From assembly GCA_031271345.1 (NCBI GenBank), contig JAISVX010000003.1:62001-126000 (forward strand): a DNA stretch of 64,000 bases. Reading direction: 5' to 3'. Each line of letters opens with the position of its first letter. Positions within the stretch are counted from its first letter, which is position 1. Positions 1,046 through 20,120 of this stretch are shown in pieces. Both the position numbers and the translations under genes were made by a program. The notes below the pieces were generated by a model, which had not been told where the DNA came from, ran no database searches, and saw nothing but the letters and a program-made list of their open reading frames with translations. The stretch is from Lactobacillaceae bacterium. Its GTDB lineage: Bacteria > Pseudomonadota > Alphaproteobacteria > RF32 > CAG-239.

Positions 1046-1192
1046 ATGGCTGGGGTAGATGGATTGGCTAAAAATTGCCTTGCAATTTTCTTAACGCCGA
1101 ACCTTCGTCGCAAGTGCGGTCATACTTTCGTCTGACCTGCTCCTTGGTTTCAAACCACCTTCTCGGTGATTCAAATCATAGACCTCAACAAG
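1046..1192 (-). repeat. Degenerate copy of the tRNA-Gln 3' half, interrupted by an insert
   Basis: Lies downstream of tRNA-Gln(CTG) on the tRNA strand, past its terminator. Bases 1046-1065 repeat exactly the last 20 bases of the tRNA region (copy at 1231-1250, 185 bp away). On the same strand a T-arm-like sequence (1146-1159) precedes it, and the two pieces are separated by about 80 bases that do not belong to a tRNA. Within that insert GGTCA (1118-1122) can pair with TGACC (1133-1137). The same plan recurs at 19864-20006. Confidence 0.7.
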
Positions 1193-1231
1193 TTAAAAGG
1201 AGTTCAAGGCAAAAGCCTGAACTCCTTTTAA
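1193..1231 (-). terminator. Rho-independent terminator of tRNA-Gln(CTG)
   Basis: A long perfect hairpin (GGAGTTCAGGC / GCCTTGAACTCC, loop TTTT plus one bulge) starts directly at the tRNA CCA end and finishes in CCTTTTAA on the minus strand. The sequence is identical to the terminator behind the other tRNA-Gln at 20007-20045, including about 14 bases beyond it. Confidence 0.85.
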
Positions 1232-1306
1232 TGGCTGGGGTAGATGGATTCGAACCACCGAATGTCGGTACCAGAAACCGATGCCTTACCGCTTGGCGAT
1301 ACCCCA
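1232..1306 (-). tRNA. tRNA-Gln (anticodon CTG)
   Basis: A 75-base tRNA read on the minus strand. The acceptor stem TGGGGTA/TACCCCA is followed by G and an encoded CCA. The D-arm GCCAAGCGGTAAGGC, an anticodon loop TTCTGGT giving CTG (decodes CAG), and the T-arm GGTGG-TTCGAAT-CCATC are all present. It closely resembles the E. coli glutamine tRNA. A second isoacceptor (TTG) is at 20046-20120. Confidence 0.97.
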
Positions 1307-2177: not shown

Positions 2178-5100
2178 ATGGTTAGTTTTAAAATATGTAG
2201 AAACATTTTCATTTTGGTGCTTATGTCAGGAACATTTAGCCTGCCGGCGCATGCGGTTGACGTCAATAGTTGGCACCCTTTGAGGAGCGCTTTGACGGGC
2301 GGAGATGCAAATATTAATATTACAGGCAGTTTTAATGCTGAAACCTGTACAGGTTTTCTTTGTGTGCAAAATGAAAACAATACTACAGCTCTTACAAGCG
2401 GTTCCTATAATATTATAGGTAATGGCTATACGATAAGTTTGGGTACCAATAGTTATAGAAGATTCAGATTCAACGGCTCTGGAACGTCATCCATTACGGG
2501 TTTGACAATTCAAAACGCTGCGGGCGGCGCGATCCCCGCTGGTCTTCAAGGCGGCGCGATTTCAAACTCCCAGACCCTGACCATAACTAATTCTATAATC
2601 ACAAATAACAGGTCAAGAGATGGCGGCGGCGGCATATATAACAGCGGAACTTTGAATTTATACGGCGGCACCCAGATAATCAACAATGATACCGAGGAAT
2701 ATACCACCTCCCGTAACGGCGGAGGAATTTATAATGACGGTACGGTAAATGTTGACAGCGCTTCGGGGCAGGTCGATATTAATGGAAACAAATTAGACAG
2801 CGGTAATACAGTAAATATGGAAGGTCGCGGCGCGGGAATATATACAAACGGAACCTTAAATATAACTTCCAATAACGGAAATGCTGTTAACCTCAATAGC
2901 AACACAACAACGGGCATTAGCACAAGTTCAAGAGCAACCGCCTATGGCGGCGCCATATATATTAATAGCGGAGCGACTACAATAACGGCGAACAGCGGCG
3001 ATATTACTATTGATTCCAATAACGGCGGTTCGACAAGTACGTCAACAGGCGGCGCTTCAGGTTATGGCGGAGCAATTGCTAACAATGGCGGAAGTTTAAA
3101 CATTTCTTCCTTGGGCGGCAATATTTCTTTGTCGGGCAACCATGTTGATATTACTCCAGATAACGCTTTATCTAATCAGAATAATACTCAGGCGCGAGGC
3201 GGCGCCATATATAATGTGGCGAATTCGTCGACAATTACAGCTGGAGCCGGCACTGCTATTACGATTGATAACAACCAGTTGAATATTCTGGCAAGACCCG
3301 AGCGAAATGCCTACATGCTGGGAGGAGCGATTTATAATTCCGCTGCTTTAAATATAAATGCAAACGGCGGTACAGTCAGCTTGTCTGGAAACTCTATTAA
3401 TGGCGGAACTGGCGAAGATACATGGACTGAAGGCGGCGCTATTCAGAATAGCGGCACAGCTACCATTGCTGCCGGCAACGGCGGAAGTGTTACTATTGCG
3501 AACAATACGATAATCGGTCAAGGCGATTCAGCCGGTGATGAGGAAGGAGGAACTACTGGAGGTGCGATTCATAACGAAGGCACCTTAAATTTAACTACGA
3601 GCGATACAAACTCCGCTATTACGTTTTCTGGTAATACTGCAAACGGTGTGGCACAGGATATTTATAATAAAAACGGCACTATTAATGTCAATGGTTCGGC
3701 TGGTTCGGTAATAATCGGCAGCGGTCTTGAAGGAAACGGCACAGTCAGCAAAACCAACAACGGCATATTGGAGCTTAGTGCGGCAAACAATCGTTTTAGC
3801 GGCGTTTATACTCAAACAGGCGGTATTGTTAAAATCAACGCTGACGGCACAATGCTTAACAACGGCGGCGCAAGCAATAATACAATTTCCGGCGGCGAAA
3901 TGCAGGTTGTTATGACTGACGGCGGCGGAAACTGGGACAAAGCAATCGGCAGTTTTGACAGCAACGGCGCGTTGACTTATCTTGCAAGCACTGCAGCCGC
4001 GGTTAATCTTGATAACGTCGGCGATTTAATGACAAACGCGACCTTTGCGGATGACACGGATTTGATATTTGATGCAAACACAAATATGACCGAAAAAGCC
4101 AATTATAATTTGAACGCAAACCTTGCAAAAGATAAACTGGACAGAGTTATTTTTAGAAACAGCAATGTAATTTTAGGCGCAAATAACGATTTTAACAAAT
4201 ATGGCTTGGTCAATTCAAATCTTGATATGAGAAACGGTTCTTCAACAGATGCCAAAACTTTTTCCGATTTGAGCGTTACCACTTCGACTTTGTCTTTTGA
4301 CGCAAACTTTACCGATGGCGGAAGCGGATTGGCGCTGACTTCCGATAAGCTTGTTAATAATACTTCGACTTCAGGCTCAAATACTATCGCGCTTGGAACA
4401 GTAAACTTTAATACTGCGGGAAATAATGATACGGGCGAACATTTTGAATATAAAACAACGGTTTTAACAGGTTTGACTTTTGAAAATTATCTGGGAACAA
4501 CTTATGTAAATACTGCCATATATCGATATAAACTAAGCACAAGCGGCGCAGATATTAAATTAACCGCCAATGCTTTTGCCGATGAATATTCATTGGAAGC
4601 CATGAACGTTAAATCCGGCGACAGAGATTTTAATTTCGCTGTTTACGGTACGGCGGCTTCCCAGACTTACTTAAACGGAGTAAATCTGTCTAATGCCGCG
4701 ATTGGCAATTTTAATGTGCTTGGACGCTCTGGGTACAGCGATATAATAGATGCTGGCGAATATTCTTTGTTTAATCTAACCGATGCGACAACTTTGACAG
4801 TGCAGGACGTTACCTTGCAAAATGCTTCCGGCGTGGATATTAATGTTGCGACCGCTGACGCGCTGGTCTACTTAAAAGGCAATGTTACTGTTGCCGATGG
4901 TATCAGCGGTATTGACGCTGCTAATATTTATAAAAATGACAGCGGAACGCTAAGCCTGGATGGCGACAGCTCTGGTTATCTCGGAACTTTCACGCAAAGC
5001 GCAGGCACAACTAATGTTGCAAGCGGTTTTTTCGGCGGCGCTTCAAATATCACAGGCGGAACGGTTAATTTTTCCGACGGAAGCTCAATTGCAAGCACAG

Positions 5101-8100
5101 GCATTGTTGATTTAAGCAGCGGCGTTAACGCCAATTTTATTCAAACCGCAGGCAACAGCGTCGATGTTGACGGCAAGTTTACAGGAGCGGGAGAAATCAA
5201 TAAAACAGCAGGAGGCACGCTCAATTTAAATAATGATAATTCTGGTTTTACCGGCACATTTGCTCAAACATTGGGAACAACCACCGTCAACTCCGCATTC
5301 TTTGGCGGAACAAATAGTATAAACGGCGGCATACTTAATTTTAACGACGGAAGCGCGCTTGCCTCAGGAACAGGCGGAACGGTCGCTTTAGGTGCGGGAG
5401 TTATAAACTTTACTCAAACTGGCGGCAGCTCTTTTGATACTGACGGCAAAATTACAGGTACTGGAACAATTAATAAAACAGCCGGCGGCACGCTTAATAT
5501 GACCGGCGATAACTCTAACTTTACCGGCATTTTTAATCAGGAAGCCGGCGCAACCGTCGCTTCCGGCACATTGTTTAATACGACAATGAATATTAAAAAC
5601 GGTTCTATTGAGCTTACTAATGGCGCGCATTTTGCAGCTAATTCGAAGCTTGCTATTGCTTCTGCCGCCGAACTTGATATTACAAACACAACTTCGGCAA
5701 TTTCGATTGCCGCGTCAAACCTGACTGGATATAACGGCACTTATGGCAATATAGATAAAACAGGAAGCGGAAATCTTAATTTATCCGGCGACTTCTCAGG
5801 CTACGGTGGAATATTTACACAGGAAACAGGCACGACTATTCTTGCTTCTGGAAGCAAAATGTTTGGCGGAAATTCGGCAAATAATCTGATAAAAGGCGGA
5901 ACGCTGCAGGTTATTTCTGCTTCAGACACCGACTTAAACCAAACGGTTACTCTTAGCGGAGGCTCTTTGGAGTATTTGTCGGAAACTTCAGACACTTTAA
6001 CCGTAAGTAGCAGCAATCTTTCAAATGTTGTGGTTTCATCATCGGGAACAACGATTAAATTTGGTTCAAACTCTTCTGAAAAAGCAAAATATGAGCTGGC
6101 GGAAAGCATTGTTAAAGGTACTGGCACTACCATTGCGTTTGAAGATTCTGACGTAAAAATAGGTTCCAACGATTTCAAAGACGATACGACATATTCGTTC
6201 AAAGATTCAACTATCGATTTGACAACCAGTGGAAACACTCCTTCAATAAACCAAACGGAGTTTAATAATCTGGTTACAGACAACTCTTCGTTAAATATTG
6301 ACTTAGTGTTTAACAGAGAAAGCGGCAGTTCAACGGAAATTCTTGTTGACCAGTTGGTTAACAATGGCGCGGAGCAGGTGGTCGAACTGGGTCTGATTAA
6401 GTTTTATGACCAATATGACGACGGCACCTTGGGAACGCAGAGCGTTAATGTTCTTACCGGCGTTAAATTTAAGGAAGCAAAAAGCGTAGACTATTATACA
6501 ACGCTCCACAGTTACAAAGTTTCTACCAATGATACTTTAGACGGTTTAGATATAGAATTTGACAGCCACGCTTCCGCTAACTCTCTTTATATAGCCAACG
6601 GCGATCTAAATGAAGAAAGAGTGTTTTCGTTTACACACTATAACGATCCGGAAACAGAGTATATTTACAATATTGACCAGGACCTCGGAACAACTGCCTC
6701 AGGACACTTTACGGTTATGGGAGACGCCGCTGGTCCTGACATGAATACAATTTCCGGCAAAATCGTTGACTCTGACGGCAATTTGACAGGTGACCGCGGC
6801 TCGTTCTTTAAGCTTGAAAATGCCGGAACTACTTTGGTAATACAAGATTTGACTATTGAGGATGCGCTTGCCGACGGTGTTAGTGACACAGGAAACGGCT
6901 CGGTTATAGTCTCAGCCGCTTCAGACGCGCAGACAACAATATCCAACGTTACGCTTAAAAGCAATGATGCGTCAGGCAATGGCGGCGCGATTTATAATAG
7001 TGACGGAACTATCACGATCACCAGCGCGACAATCAGCGGAAACACTGCCGGCGGCGACGGCGGTGCGGTTTATAATAACAGCACTTTGAACCTGACAGCG
7101 GATGCCGGCAGGAATATAACTTTCTCAGGCAACTATGCGGACAGCGTTGATGGCGAAACAGGTACTAATAATGATATTTATAACGCTTCAAACGGTGTAA
7201 TCAACATTGACGGCACCGGCACAGTTAACATCGAAAGCGGTATTTCAGGAGAAGGCGAAATCAATAAGCTTGAGAGCGGAACATTTAACATTATGGCTGA
7301 TTCTTCAAGCTATACGGGAGATTTTAATCAAAGCGCAGGCACCACTAATGTTACCGACAAGTTCTTCCAGGGAGCTTCAAAGATTGACGGCGGCAGTTTA
7401 GTATTTGGCGCTGACGGTTCATTAGGCGGCGGTACGATTACGGTTGCCGAAAACACTACGAACAACACAACTGGAACGGTCAACTTTAATTCTGGAAGCT
7501 CAATGACAGGCGGTTCCATCAGCATGACTGACGGCGCGTTGACTTTTACAAGCTCAACGCTCAGCGGCGGTTCGGTAGCAGCAAGCGGCGGCGAGTTAAA
7601 CTGGCTGGGAACATCTTCGAAAACTTCGGCTGCGGAAATAAATGTTACAGACGGCAAAGTTAATCTGGGAGCAAACTCAGAGCTTGATTTGAATAATTCG
7701 TCAGATACAATCAGCGCGGATATAGAAATGGCAGGCACTTCAACATTGAACAATTCGTCTGGCAATGTTACATTTCAAACCGATAGTATTGTGGCAGGCG
7801 CGATTATCAACTCAAAGAACGTTACTTTCAATGCTTTGAGCCACGATTACAGAAGCGGTACGGGAACATTTACCCAGACTGACAGCAACGGCGTGTTTAC
7901 ACTTGAAAACGGTTCGGTTGTAATAGCCGGTTCTAATTTTAATATGACTGACGGAACTTTAAACATCGGCGTAGCTCCAGACCCTGACAATGTATTTGTT
8001 GTCGCAAACGGTTTTACCTTGGTAGATGATGTTGTGGTAAATATAATCCCTGACAACGAGCTTAATGTGGAAGGCGGCACCGCAAACCTTGGCAGCGATG

Positions 8101-10015: not shown

Positions 10016-11107
10016 ATGGCGGAAATAGAGTTTACATCAAACGAGTTATCAAGTTTTTATGAGCTTTGGACATCAATTCTGGGTTCTAAGGATAAAGAAA
10101 TTGATGAAAATTTAAATATTTCTCGTTCAGAAAAAGATAACCGGGAGTTCAAACAATATGCCAAAGAATTAAAAGCCGTAAAGCCTGATGGTCCGATTTT
10201 TGACGGGCTTAAAAAGTTGTCCGCGGAGTTGTTTAAAGACAACGGTTCAATTAAGACTTTTGACGACTTTAAAAGCTTTGTAAAAGATAATGTTTCTGAC
10301 AAATATGATTATGCTCTGACTAATTTATACAAACCGTTTCATGAGTTTTATAGTTCTGCCGAAGTAGTAAAAGAAAGAGAAGCCGCAGTGCGGGCATTGG
10401 GCAGTTTCGGCTATGGCAAAGAATTGGGCAATATGTATAAATTTTTCAATGTTTCGGAAGATTTTAAAATCAAGGGCAATATAAATTTATATCAGACAAC
10501 GTTTACTAATGACGGCACCGCTGTGAGCGGCGGATTTTTTATGAATGCGGCTATAGCCGATAAAAATGATACCTGCCTGGGAAACTCAGCTGTTCAGGAA
10601 CGCAAAGTATCAACGCCGCTGCATGAAAGCGCCCACCTTTTGTTTGGAAAGTCTAAAGAGTGGTTGTTCAAAAATGAAATAGACCGGGTTTTAAAGGGAA
10701 AAGCTCCCGCGCTTGGCGGCGCTAGCAGGGTTGTGTCGATACTTAAAAACTATTTCGAAAAAAATCCTGAGGCGAAAAGAGACGGCAATGTTGACGACAA
10801 TCTTTCAGGCTCAATGCTCGCTGCTATTCATGAATCATTCGGAGCCAGTGCCAGTGCTTTAATTGACGAGAAAAAACAACCTGGATATGACGCTGCAAAA
10901 GATAAGAAAAGAAAATGGTATTATGGCTTTGATGGCGCCGATAAACTTGCCCCGATTGTTTATCCCATATTTAAAGAATATATTTCTAAAGGCAAAATGC
11001 TTGACGATAAGTTTTATAATAAACTTGCCGATAATATGCGTGATTTTGGACTTGAAAAAGGAAAACATCTCGGACAGCAGGAGCATAAATCAACATTACA
11101 TCATTAA
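10016..11107 (+). CDS. Unknown protein with a zincin-like HESAH motif
   Basis: A 363-residue protein I do not recognise. It has no signal peptide. The segment STPLHESAHLLFG (about 199-211) contains HExxH at 203-207, flanked by hydrophobic residues as in zinc metallopeptidases; E275 in AAIHESFGASAS is a plausible third metal ligand. The N-terminal ~120 residues look helical and charged. A strong promoter and an AGGAGG site drive it, and a MORN-type gene follows 35 bases later. A cytosolic or secreted (signal-less) metallopeptidase is possible but unproven; the motif could also be fortuitous. Confidence 0.75.
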   Translation: MAEIEFTSNELSSFYELWTSILGSKDKEIDENLNISRSEKDNREFKQYAKELKAVKPDGPIFDGLKKLSAELFKDNGSIKTFDDFKSFVKDNVSDKYDYALTNLYKPFHEFYSSAEVVKEREAAVRALGSFGYGKELGNMYKFFNVSEDFKIKGNINLYQTTFTNDGTAVSGGFFMNAAIADKNDTCLGNSAVQERKVSTPLHESAHLLFGKSKEWLFKNEIDRVLKGKAPALGGASRVVSILKNYFEKNPEAKRDGNVDDNLSGSMLAAIHESFGASASALIDEKKQPGYDAAKDKKRKWYYGFDGADKLAPIVYPIFKEYISKGKMLDDKFYNKLADNMRDFGLEKGKHLGQQEHKSTLHH

Positions 11108-11142
11108 AATTGCTATATACTTTTCCAATTAGGAGGAAAAAC

Positions 11143-11844
11143 ATGAAAAAAGGCTTATTGATTTTGCTATGTTTTATAATAAATATAAATTTTGTTAATG
11201 CTGAAAAAATATATGCTGAAAAAGATGTGATACCTAATGATTATTATCATATAGACGAGGACACAATTGTTTTGGACGCTAAAACAAAACAGCCGGTTAC
11301 CGGGCTGCTAATAATGGAAAGAGAGCATTGGATTCCAAACAAAATAGAACTGCCTCTTAAAAACGGGAAAATGGATGGAATTAAAAAGCAGTATGTTGAT
11401 AATATTTTAGATGAAGAAGTGCAGTATAAAAATGGCAAAAGAACCGGCGTGCAGAGAAACTATTACAAAAACGGAAAATTAAGCGGCGAGTTTTTAAATG
11501 GATTAGATAAATATTATGACGAAAACGGCGTTTTATATATGGAAGAATATAAAACCTGGAACGGCAATAAAGAAAAAACGCTTTTTTATTATCCTAATGG
11601 AAACTTAAAAGAAGAAACTCATTTTGAAACTTCTTTTGGAAGGCTGTATATACACCCAAAAAAACATGGAGAGGCGAAAACTTATTATGAAAACGGGCAT
11701 GTAAAAAGCGAACTGTATTTTAATAAAGGGATTATAGAAAAAGGGTTTATGTATGGAGCTGATGGAAAAAAACAAAAATTGACCGATGACGAGATAGCAA
11801 AACTAAATAAAGAAGAAAAAGATAATGCGGCTGGAATGAAATAA
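11143..11844 (+). CDS. Secreted or periplasmic MORN-variant repeat protein
   Basis: About 233 residues starting at the ATG after a perfect AGGAGG (11131-11136); the longer in-frame start at 11110 has no ribosome site. MKKGLLILLCFIININFVNA is a signal peptide. The body contains repeated 'YYxNGxLxxE' units (YKNGKRTG, YYKNGKLSGE, YYDENGVLY, FYYPNGNLKEE, YYENGHVKSE), the antitoxin-YwqK / MORN_2 type of repeat seen in many exported proteins of unknown role. It lies 35 bases after the HESAH-motif gene and 25 bases before the PEP-domain gene, so the three may be co-transcribed. Confidence 0.75.
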   Translation: MKKGLLILLCFIININFVNAEKIYAEKDVIPNDYYHIDEDTIVLDAKTKQPVTGLLIMEREHWIPNKIELPLKNGKMDGIKKQYVDNILDEEVQYKNGKRTGVQRNYYKNGKLSGEFLNGLDKYYDENGVLYMEEYKTWNGNKEKTLFYYPNGNLKEETHFETSFGRLYIHPKKHGEAKTYYENGHVKSELYFNKGIIEKGFMYGADGKKQKLTDDEIAKLNKEEKDNAAGMK

Positions 11845-19863: not shown

Positions 19864-20006
19864 ATGGCTGGGCTGGCTGGATTACTCTCATTTCATTCGA
19901 GTTGCACTGCGTTCGCTCGGCTTTGCCTCACCGGCATGCTTCCGCCTGCCTCTCACTTGTAGTCGAACCAACTTCCCCGTCGGTTCAAATCACAGACCTC
20001 AACAAG
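19864..20006 (-). repeat. Second degenerate tRNA-Gln 3'-half copy with insert
   Basis: Same plan as 1046-1192. Bases 19864-19883 repeat exactly the 20 bases at the 3' end of tRNA-Gln(TTG) (20045-20064, 181 bp apart). On the tRNA strand, GTTGGTTCGA from the T-arm is followed by an insert of about 80 bases before the acceptor part resumes at AATCCAGCC. GGCA (19933-19936) can pair with TGCC (19947-19950) around a 10-base loop, matching by position the GGTCA/TGACC pair of the other locus. The 19704-19863 stretch holds no gene that I can support. Confidence 0.7.
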
Positions 20007-20045
20007 TTAAAAGGAGTTCAAGGCAAAAGCCTGAACTCCTTTTAA
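20007..20045 (-). terminator. Rho-independent terminator of tRNA-Gln(TTG)
   Basis: Identical in sequence to the hairpin at 1193-1231 and placed directly behind the CCA end on the minus strand. Confidence 0.85.
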
Positions 20046-20120
20046 TGGCTGGGCTGGCTGGATTCGAACCAACGAATGCCGGTACCAAAAACCGGTGCCT
20101 TACCACTTGGCGACAGCCCA
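20046..20120 (-). tRNA. tRNA-Gln (anticodon TTG)
   Basis: 75 bases on the minus strand: acceptor TGGGCTG/CAGCCCA, discriminator G and encoded CCA, D-arm GCCAAGTGGTAAGGC, an anticodon loop TTTTGGT giving TTG (decodes CAA), and T-arm GTTGG-TTCGAAT-CCAGC. Paralogue of the CTG isoacceptor at 1232-1306. Confidence 0.97.

Follow-up and report, generated by a model that had tools for sequence, protein, structure and literature searches.

RtT-like repeat units carrying copies of the 3′ half of their own tRNA behind tRNA-Gln and other tRNA genes in a family of gut Alphaproteobacteria

Results

Two tRNA-Gln Loci and the Anatomy of the Repeat Unit

The window, i.e., the whole analyzed stretch of 64,000 nucleotides, contains two tRNA-Gln genes located 18.8 kb apart, each of which is followed by a repeat unit with copies of its own 3′ half (Table 1). 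The terminator-like repeat behind the two genes was the same letter for letter over 39 nt, and the flank past it was also identical. An exact 20-nt copy of the 3′ end of tRNA-Gln(TTG) (ATGGCTGGGCTGGCTGGATT on the + strand) was found at 19864–19883 and 20045–20064, whereas tRNA-Gln(CTG) had its own exact 20-nt copy (ATGGCTGGGGTAGATGGATT) at 1046–1065 and 1231–1250, with spacings of 181 and 185 bp, respectively. Thus, the shared terminator and the split copy of each gene's own tail, both described in the first-pass annotation, were confirmed; this observation was correct but far too narrow, since the layout is genome-wide and family-wide, and the 5′ part of the T-arm, the antisense T-arm and the structured insert had been missed in it. 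The own-tail score was 19 at both Gln genes, compared with a median of 4.5 and a maximum of 11.5 for the null set (flanking sequences of the remaining 36 tRNA genes), which rules out chance as the source of the tail copies.

Table 1. Features of the two tRNA-Gln loci of the window and, in the last five rows, of the integrative element at tRNA-Trp.
Feature	Coordinates	Strand	Basis or remark
tRNA-Gln(TTG) gene, CCA encoded; donor of the copied 3′ half	20046–20120	-	ARAGORN; Rfam tRNA, 60.8 bits
Terminator-like perfect inverted repeat, 14-bp arms, directly after the CCA of tRNA-Gln(TTG)	20007–20045	-	
Antisense T-arm GATTTGAACCGAC, TTG unit; reverse complement of T-loop and 5′ strand of T-stem; predicted partner for P0 and P1	19979–19991	-	Read from sequence
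Loop of hairpin P1, GGGGAA, TTG unit	19973–19978	-	Hairpin fold
T-arm 5′ half, second copy, GTTGGTTCGA, ending at A58, TTG unit	19963–19972	-	Read from sequence
Structured insert CTACAAG...GAGT, dividing the T-arm copy of the TTG unit within the T-loop	19884–19962	-	R1 match
P3, conserved insert hairpin GGCAGGCGGAAGCATGCC (C-GGAA-G, GNRA type), TTG unit	19933–19950	-	
Tail copy, 3′ end of tRNA-Gln(TTG), A58 to CCA, 19 nt	19865–19883	-	
tRNA-Gln(CTG) gene, paralogous locus	1232–1306	-	ARAGORN
Terminator-like inverted repeat behind tRNA-Gln(CTG)	1193–1231	-	Identical to 20007–20045
Antisense T-arm GATTTGAATCACC, CTG unit; altered in parallel with its own tRNA	1165–1177	-	
T-arm 5′ copy GGTGGTTTGA, then start of insert, CTG unit	1146–1159	-	
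CTG unit as R1 match (hairpin P1 and insert)	1069–1172	-	36.6 bits, E = 1.2e-7; absent from the R1 building set
Tail copy of tRNA-Gln(CTG), A58 to CCA	1047–1065	-	
Integrative element at tRNA-Trp	L065:839–13741 (G000 contig C3)		
tRNA-Trp element: integrase, 625 aa	975–2852		
tRNA-Trp element: RecQ-like helicase ORF	3856–5952		Role read by eye
tRNA-Trp element: resolvase-like ORF	5969–6517	-	Role read by eye
tRNA-Trp element: P-loop ORF	10114–11688	-	Role read by eye

Along the tRNA strand, the CCA end is followed by the terminator-like palindrome and then by the tRNA 3′ half in degenerate reverse complement. Next come a loop (e.g., GAGGAA) and a second T-arm 5′ half, which ends in TTCGA; an insert, about 80 nt in length, separates the latter from the closing stretch, i.e., the sequence of the same tRNA from A58 to CCA. 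Measured between the T-loops of successive tRNA 3′ halves, the unit is about 165–205 bp long and can be repeated in tandem. The terminator-like repeat of the TTG locus was not flagged by a simple terminator scan. In each locus, this palindrome is extended by the CCA/TGG of the tRNA and by the antisense half, so that the tRNA 3′ half, the terminator and the antisense half form a single long imperfect inverted repeat. The two Gln loci could be aligned through the tRNA, terminator, antisense and P1, and the differences between them were T-stem copies tracking their own tRNA. To judge from this alignment, their most likely origin is the duplication of a single tRNA-Gln locus, with subsequent in-step change.

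Distribution of Units in the Source Genome

All tRNA loci of the 1.5-Mb source genome were surveyed using ARAGORN, and the repeat unit was found behind 12 of its 37 tRNA genes, namely, Arg(ccg), Asn, both Gln, Glu(ctc), Lys(ttt), one Met, Ser(gga), Ser(tga), both Thr and Val(gac). Two additional units, a decayed one at Pro(tgg) and a displaced one at Trp, lie outside these 12, and remnants of units occur behind other tRNAs, e.g., Asp and Val(tac). At Lys(ttt) and Ser(tga), the terminator was duplicated along with the tail. The antisense segment was specific: for 11 tRNAs, the gene's own flank outscored all 36 others, with about one expected, and mostly at a similar distance. Upstream of tRNA-Ser(tga), a copy of the 5′ half of the gene was observed, which is broken near the anticodon loop by a GC-rich insert and is a mirror image of the 3′ units.

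Distribution of Units in Related Bacteria

Covariance model R1 was built from 15 units; both R1 and a second model, R2, exclude the tRNA, so adjacency to tRNA genes was not built in. The TTG unit matched R1 at 19882–19986 (76.5 bits, E = 5.8e-18), its sequence being among the seeds of the model. R1 matches were found in 48 of 49 genomes of the family, which comprises Azospirillum sp. CAG:239-like gut Alphaproteobacteria (named relatives: Azospirillum sp. CAG:239 and gut Alphaproteobacteria MAGs), with up to 17 units per genome. The units were often in tandem and often located at contig ends, since assemblies break there. A tRNA gene on the same strand was present within 1 kb upstream of 123 of the 132 units examined, and 26 tRNA types were represented; the first units mostly began 53–67 nt past the CCA. 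A coding role was rejected, as unit lengths fell in all three frames and only 24–38 of the 132 units were open in each frame.

At least one tail copy was present in 81 of 110 tRNA loci of the relatives, and in 71 of 105 tail copies in these loci, the match spanned exactly 19 nt and thus ran from A58 to the CCA; the boundaries are thus consistent, in agreement with what the first-pass annotation had expected of a mobile or maintained element. R2 matches were also found in three other alphaproteobacterial families, in two of which the locus contained a tRNA gene (Pro, Arg, Glu) with its own tail copied exactly or nearly so. A pattern based on the boundary only recovered just 3 of 399 genomes and was too strict for a survey.

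Other types of insert obeyed the same tail principle, namely, those behind Arg(tct) (L047), Ser(cga) (L050) and Pro(ggg) (L060); Glu(ttc) (L039), His (L029) and Glu(ctc) (L266); and Asn (L009) and Thr(ggt) (L019). They comprised type B, with GATAAAAA-hairpin-TTTTTACTTAGC ahead of the tail, one behind Glu/His with a long antisense tail and one behind Asn/Thr/Gly with AAGCC...GGC hairpins. The viral contig IMGVR_UViG_2521172693_000001 (L267, about 10400–10750) also contains tRNA-tail units in tandem; they end in TCCCTCCCTCTCCGCCA, are separated by a terminator and are probably the host edge of a prophage. An unverified fecal phage scaffold (L270) also carries units with an adjoining tRNA. Carriage by these two sequences was not counted as evidence for a phage origin of the units.

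Tracking of the Own tRNA and Turnover of Units

The tail copies differed on average by 0.69 nt from their own tRNA and by 4.25 nt from the same isoacceptor of another species. The own tRNA was the closer match in 359 cases versus 5 for the other (330 versus 5 for the acceptor part alone), although these comparisons are not independent. Together with the T-stem copies of the Gln loci, which changed in step with their genes, this bears out the earlier proposal that each copy arose, or is kept in step, locally. The median identity of inserts was 0.977 between tandem units, 0.658 between different tRNAs of one genome and 0.726 for the same tRNA within a genus. Most loci differed between two species of one genus; therefore, the turnover of units is fast.

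A repeat of this kind, RtT (Rfam RF00391, rttR), has long been known behind one tRNA operon of E. coli, tyrT, where the repeats are 178 bp long. Three units follow tyrV in E. coli K-12, compared with one in strains LCP22S3_I2 and TUM1226, the difference being exact steps of 178 bp with a matching flank; TUM1226 also has no unit between the tRNA genes. The number of matching places per E. coli genome was 1 to 9 (median 2). Thus, the precise presence and absence between strains that the first-pass annotation had proposed to look for was found in the E. coli prototype, for the whole unit from tail to tail.

Recombinases and the Integrative Element at tRNA-Trp

No dedicated recombinase was found in the source genome (99.8% complete): matches to PF00589 were limited to two Xer-like genes and the integrase of an ordinary element at tRNA-Trp. 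Y1 transposases of the REP/RAYT or IS200-like kind (PF01797) and reverse transcriptases, as a test for retroelements (PF00078), were likewise absent from this genome. The units themselves neither encode a recombinase nor are linked to one, which sets them apart from integrase elements. The 12.9-kb element at tRNA-Trp is wedged between the tRNA and its unit; its att core consists of 17 nt of the tRNA tail (TCCTGCCGCCCCTGCCA), and the original terminator, antisense segment and unit lie beyond its right end. The Trp unit therefore predates the integrase element and was not made by its integrase.

These data bear on the suggestion of the first-pass annotation that a site-specific element acts at the tRNA tail in trans. 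On such a reading, the unit would be a small mobile element, non-autonomous and targeted to A58 of the T-loop; an integrase or another enzyme would move it in trans, and its insertion would regenerate the tRNA 3′ half. The sharp boundary within the T-loop, where integrases often act, the related inserts at 26 tRNA types, the rapid gain and loss between two congeneric species and the several unrelated insert types under the same principle are all consistent with it. However, no dedicated recombinase, Y1 transposase or reverse transcriptase was found in the genome, and nearly all units lie directly behind tRNAs and match the tRNA in question at three sites (the two halves of the T-arm and the antisense segment), which a mover would not carry. 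The only real integrase element has the 17-nt tail as its core, and the unit lies beyond its right end. We consider this explanation unlikely, and the claim of an element acting in trans was not supported. It is highly improbable that the units are worn attachment-site remnants of past integrative elements: tRNA 3′ halves are classic attachment sites and one integrase element is indeed present at tRNA-Trp, but a covarying insert conserved among units, a regular spacing of 53–67 nt from the CCA or exact tandem copies would not be expected of such remnants. Tandem expansion and the precise gain and loss of whole units fit ordinary recombination between repeated tRNA tails.

Secondary Structure and Covariation

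A first RNAalifold consensus of 13 units from the source genome gave the P1 hairpin only; the structure used instead was drawn up manually from 15 units and then evaluated on 134. Of the aligned cells in these 134 units, 84.4% could pair (95.6% for P1). The covariation score was 0.462, compared with 0.151 ± 0.006 for shuffles and at most 0.073 for slid structures; it should be noted that these figures lean upward, since the sequences are related and the structure guided their alignment, but most of the 134 units were outside the 15-unit seed and the slid control was far lower. Changes on both sides were found in 26 of 29 pairs, with compensatory changes across all six helices. The P3 loop was C-GNRA-G in 89 of 121 units, and the two inner pairs of helix 2 were either Watson–Crick or tandem G·A. 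In P0, the antisense GGATT is predicted to pair with the tail AATCC and varies with tails such as AGTCC and AACCC; in the right register, 62% of the pairs were Watson–Crick and 7% G·U, whereas one base off, 43% were Watson–Crick. A resemblance to the hammerhead core was dropped, as Rfam at permissive thresholds gave only chance matches besides tRNA.

The compensatory changes in six helices across many genera imply that the fold is under selection for as long as a unit is present. The same changes speak against neutral tandem repeats produced by hairpin-driven replication slippage and devoid of function, a possibility that the many decayed units and fast turnover would fit and that we regard as very unlikely.

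Folding of RNA appears to be favored over folding of DNA, mainly because of the GNRA loop and the RtT precedent: G·U exceeded A·C mismatches on the unit strand (132 to 77), but the excess was modest outside the T-arm hairpin (81 to 63). The rival view is that the units are DNA-level structures with no RNA role, either palindromes forming cruciforms or single-strand hairpins or serial backup terminators. The long inverted repeat made of the terminator-like palindrome and the antisense half, the joint duplication of terminator and tail at Lys(ttt) and Ser(tga) and the weak G·U excess just given are in line with this view. Meanwhile, GNRA loops and tandem G·A motifs are typical of RNA, the insert would be superfluous for backup termination alone, and the related RtT RNAs are real transcripts (PMC4986893), so that a purely DNA-level role seems quite unlikely.

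Discussion

The units described here are probably RtT-type tRNA-tail cassettes, that is, tandem-capable RNA modules that are kept like their own tRNA by local recombination and form a new, divergent branch of the RtT kind. This interpretation draws directly on the anatomy of the units, their covarying fold, the A58 breakpoint, the tracking of the own tRNA, the tandem copies and the precise change in copy number in E. coli. According to the proposed model, the unit would act as an RNA, produced by transcription past the tRNA terminator; the strong terminator-like palindrome between the tRNA and the unit counts against such read-through. The P0 and P1 pairings suggest that the two T-arm halves separated by the insert share the antisense strand as their pairing partner. 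The 3′ end of the unit may be matured in a tRNA-like manner to CCA, as suggested by the annotated E. coli RttR, which stops at the CCA of the tail.

At the DNA level, recombination would involve the stretch of about 80–100 bp formed by the tRNA 3′ half, terminator and antisense segment and the same stretch in the unit. Such recombination would expand, delete and homogenize the units, so that they stay in step with the tRNA. It explains the tandem copies, the exact loss of units, their homogeneity and the tracking of the own tRNA. No dedicated enzyme is needed for upkeep. Local recombination does not account for the way in which related inserts first came to occupy 26 tRNA types; this may reflect ancient spread, duplication of tRNA genes or past mobility.

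The role of the unit is the weakest step of the model. Most likely, it would be a by-product RNA or a 3′ trailer acting on termination or processing of the tRNA transcript. A more far-reaching idea, which we hold to be improbable, is that of a proteobacterial class of tRNA-specific riboregulators in which the antisense T-arm toggles between its own split T-arm and the T-arm of the preceding tRNA. If so, each unit would control the folding, termination or maturation of exactly its tRNA, and every part would therefore have to match that tRNA.

Until now, RtT has been regarded as an oddity of the tyrT operon and of a handful of further loci in Gammaproteobacteria. A gut family with many units per genome at 26 tRNA types provides the variation needed to read the structure and to ask about function, and the exact A58 breakpoint together with co-change with the tRNA makes the origin and upkeep of the cassettes testable.

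Comparison with RtT and Other Known Systems

In the tyrT/tyrV locus of E. coli, tails starting at A58 were found at 175 and 178 bp, and Rfam identifies RtT there. The units of the family share with RtT the A58-bounded layout, the 19-nt tail with CCA (AATCC..CCA in E. coli), tandem copies downstream of the tRNA, the T-arm 5′ copy GGTTCGA and an insert that begins with CT and ends with GAGT, as well as the antisense pairing of tail and T-arm, which is present in the RtT consensus structure. Tandem G·A, located here in helix 2, has also been reported for RtT (PMC7657543, PMC8250186). The two differ in the sequence and fold of the insert, R1 having no match in E. coli; in addition, a terminator-like palindrome separates the tRNA and the unit here, the antisense segment matches well only over the T-arm and the next few bases, and many tRNA types across a family are involved, compared with few operons for RtT.

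The RtT model (RF00391) gave no match above the gathering score in the source genome or the sampled Alphaproteobacteria, nor any in L031 or L055. Among 299 genomes of the phylum, 38 had a match, and these belong to several families; units of the RtT type follow other tRNAs in several families of Gammaproteobacteria. The RtT loci that were opened lie behind tRNA-Tyr, Lys and Ser and contain the tRNA's own 19-nt tail; in Bowmanella, four tandem units follow tRNA-Glu, with the tails cut off. Thus, the units of the family work like RtT and have its layout but fall outside RtT by sequence model, and common descent is not proven, since the RtT model and R1 do not recognize each other.

RtT members Arrc20 and Arrc21 of Actinobacillus pleuropneumoniae were detected by Northern blot as RNAs near Asn and Lys tRNAs (PMC4986893). 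Like the present units, they adjoin tRNA genes other than that of tyrT; unlike them, they belong to Gammaproteobacteria and are described as being upstream of tRNA genes (PMC4986893). Among BIME/REP sequences, one enterobacterial cluster resembles rtT (PMC2965389), and palindromic repeats tied to transcription termination are a common trait; however, BIME/REP are not linked to tRNA tails, and the source genome has no Y1 (RAYT-type) transposase. With the tRNA attachment sites of integrative elements, the units share a copied tRNA 3′ half, but they have no integrase and are distinguished by a structured insert, a tandem array and an antisense copy.
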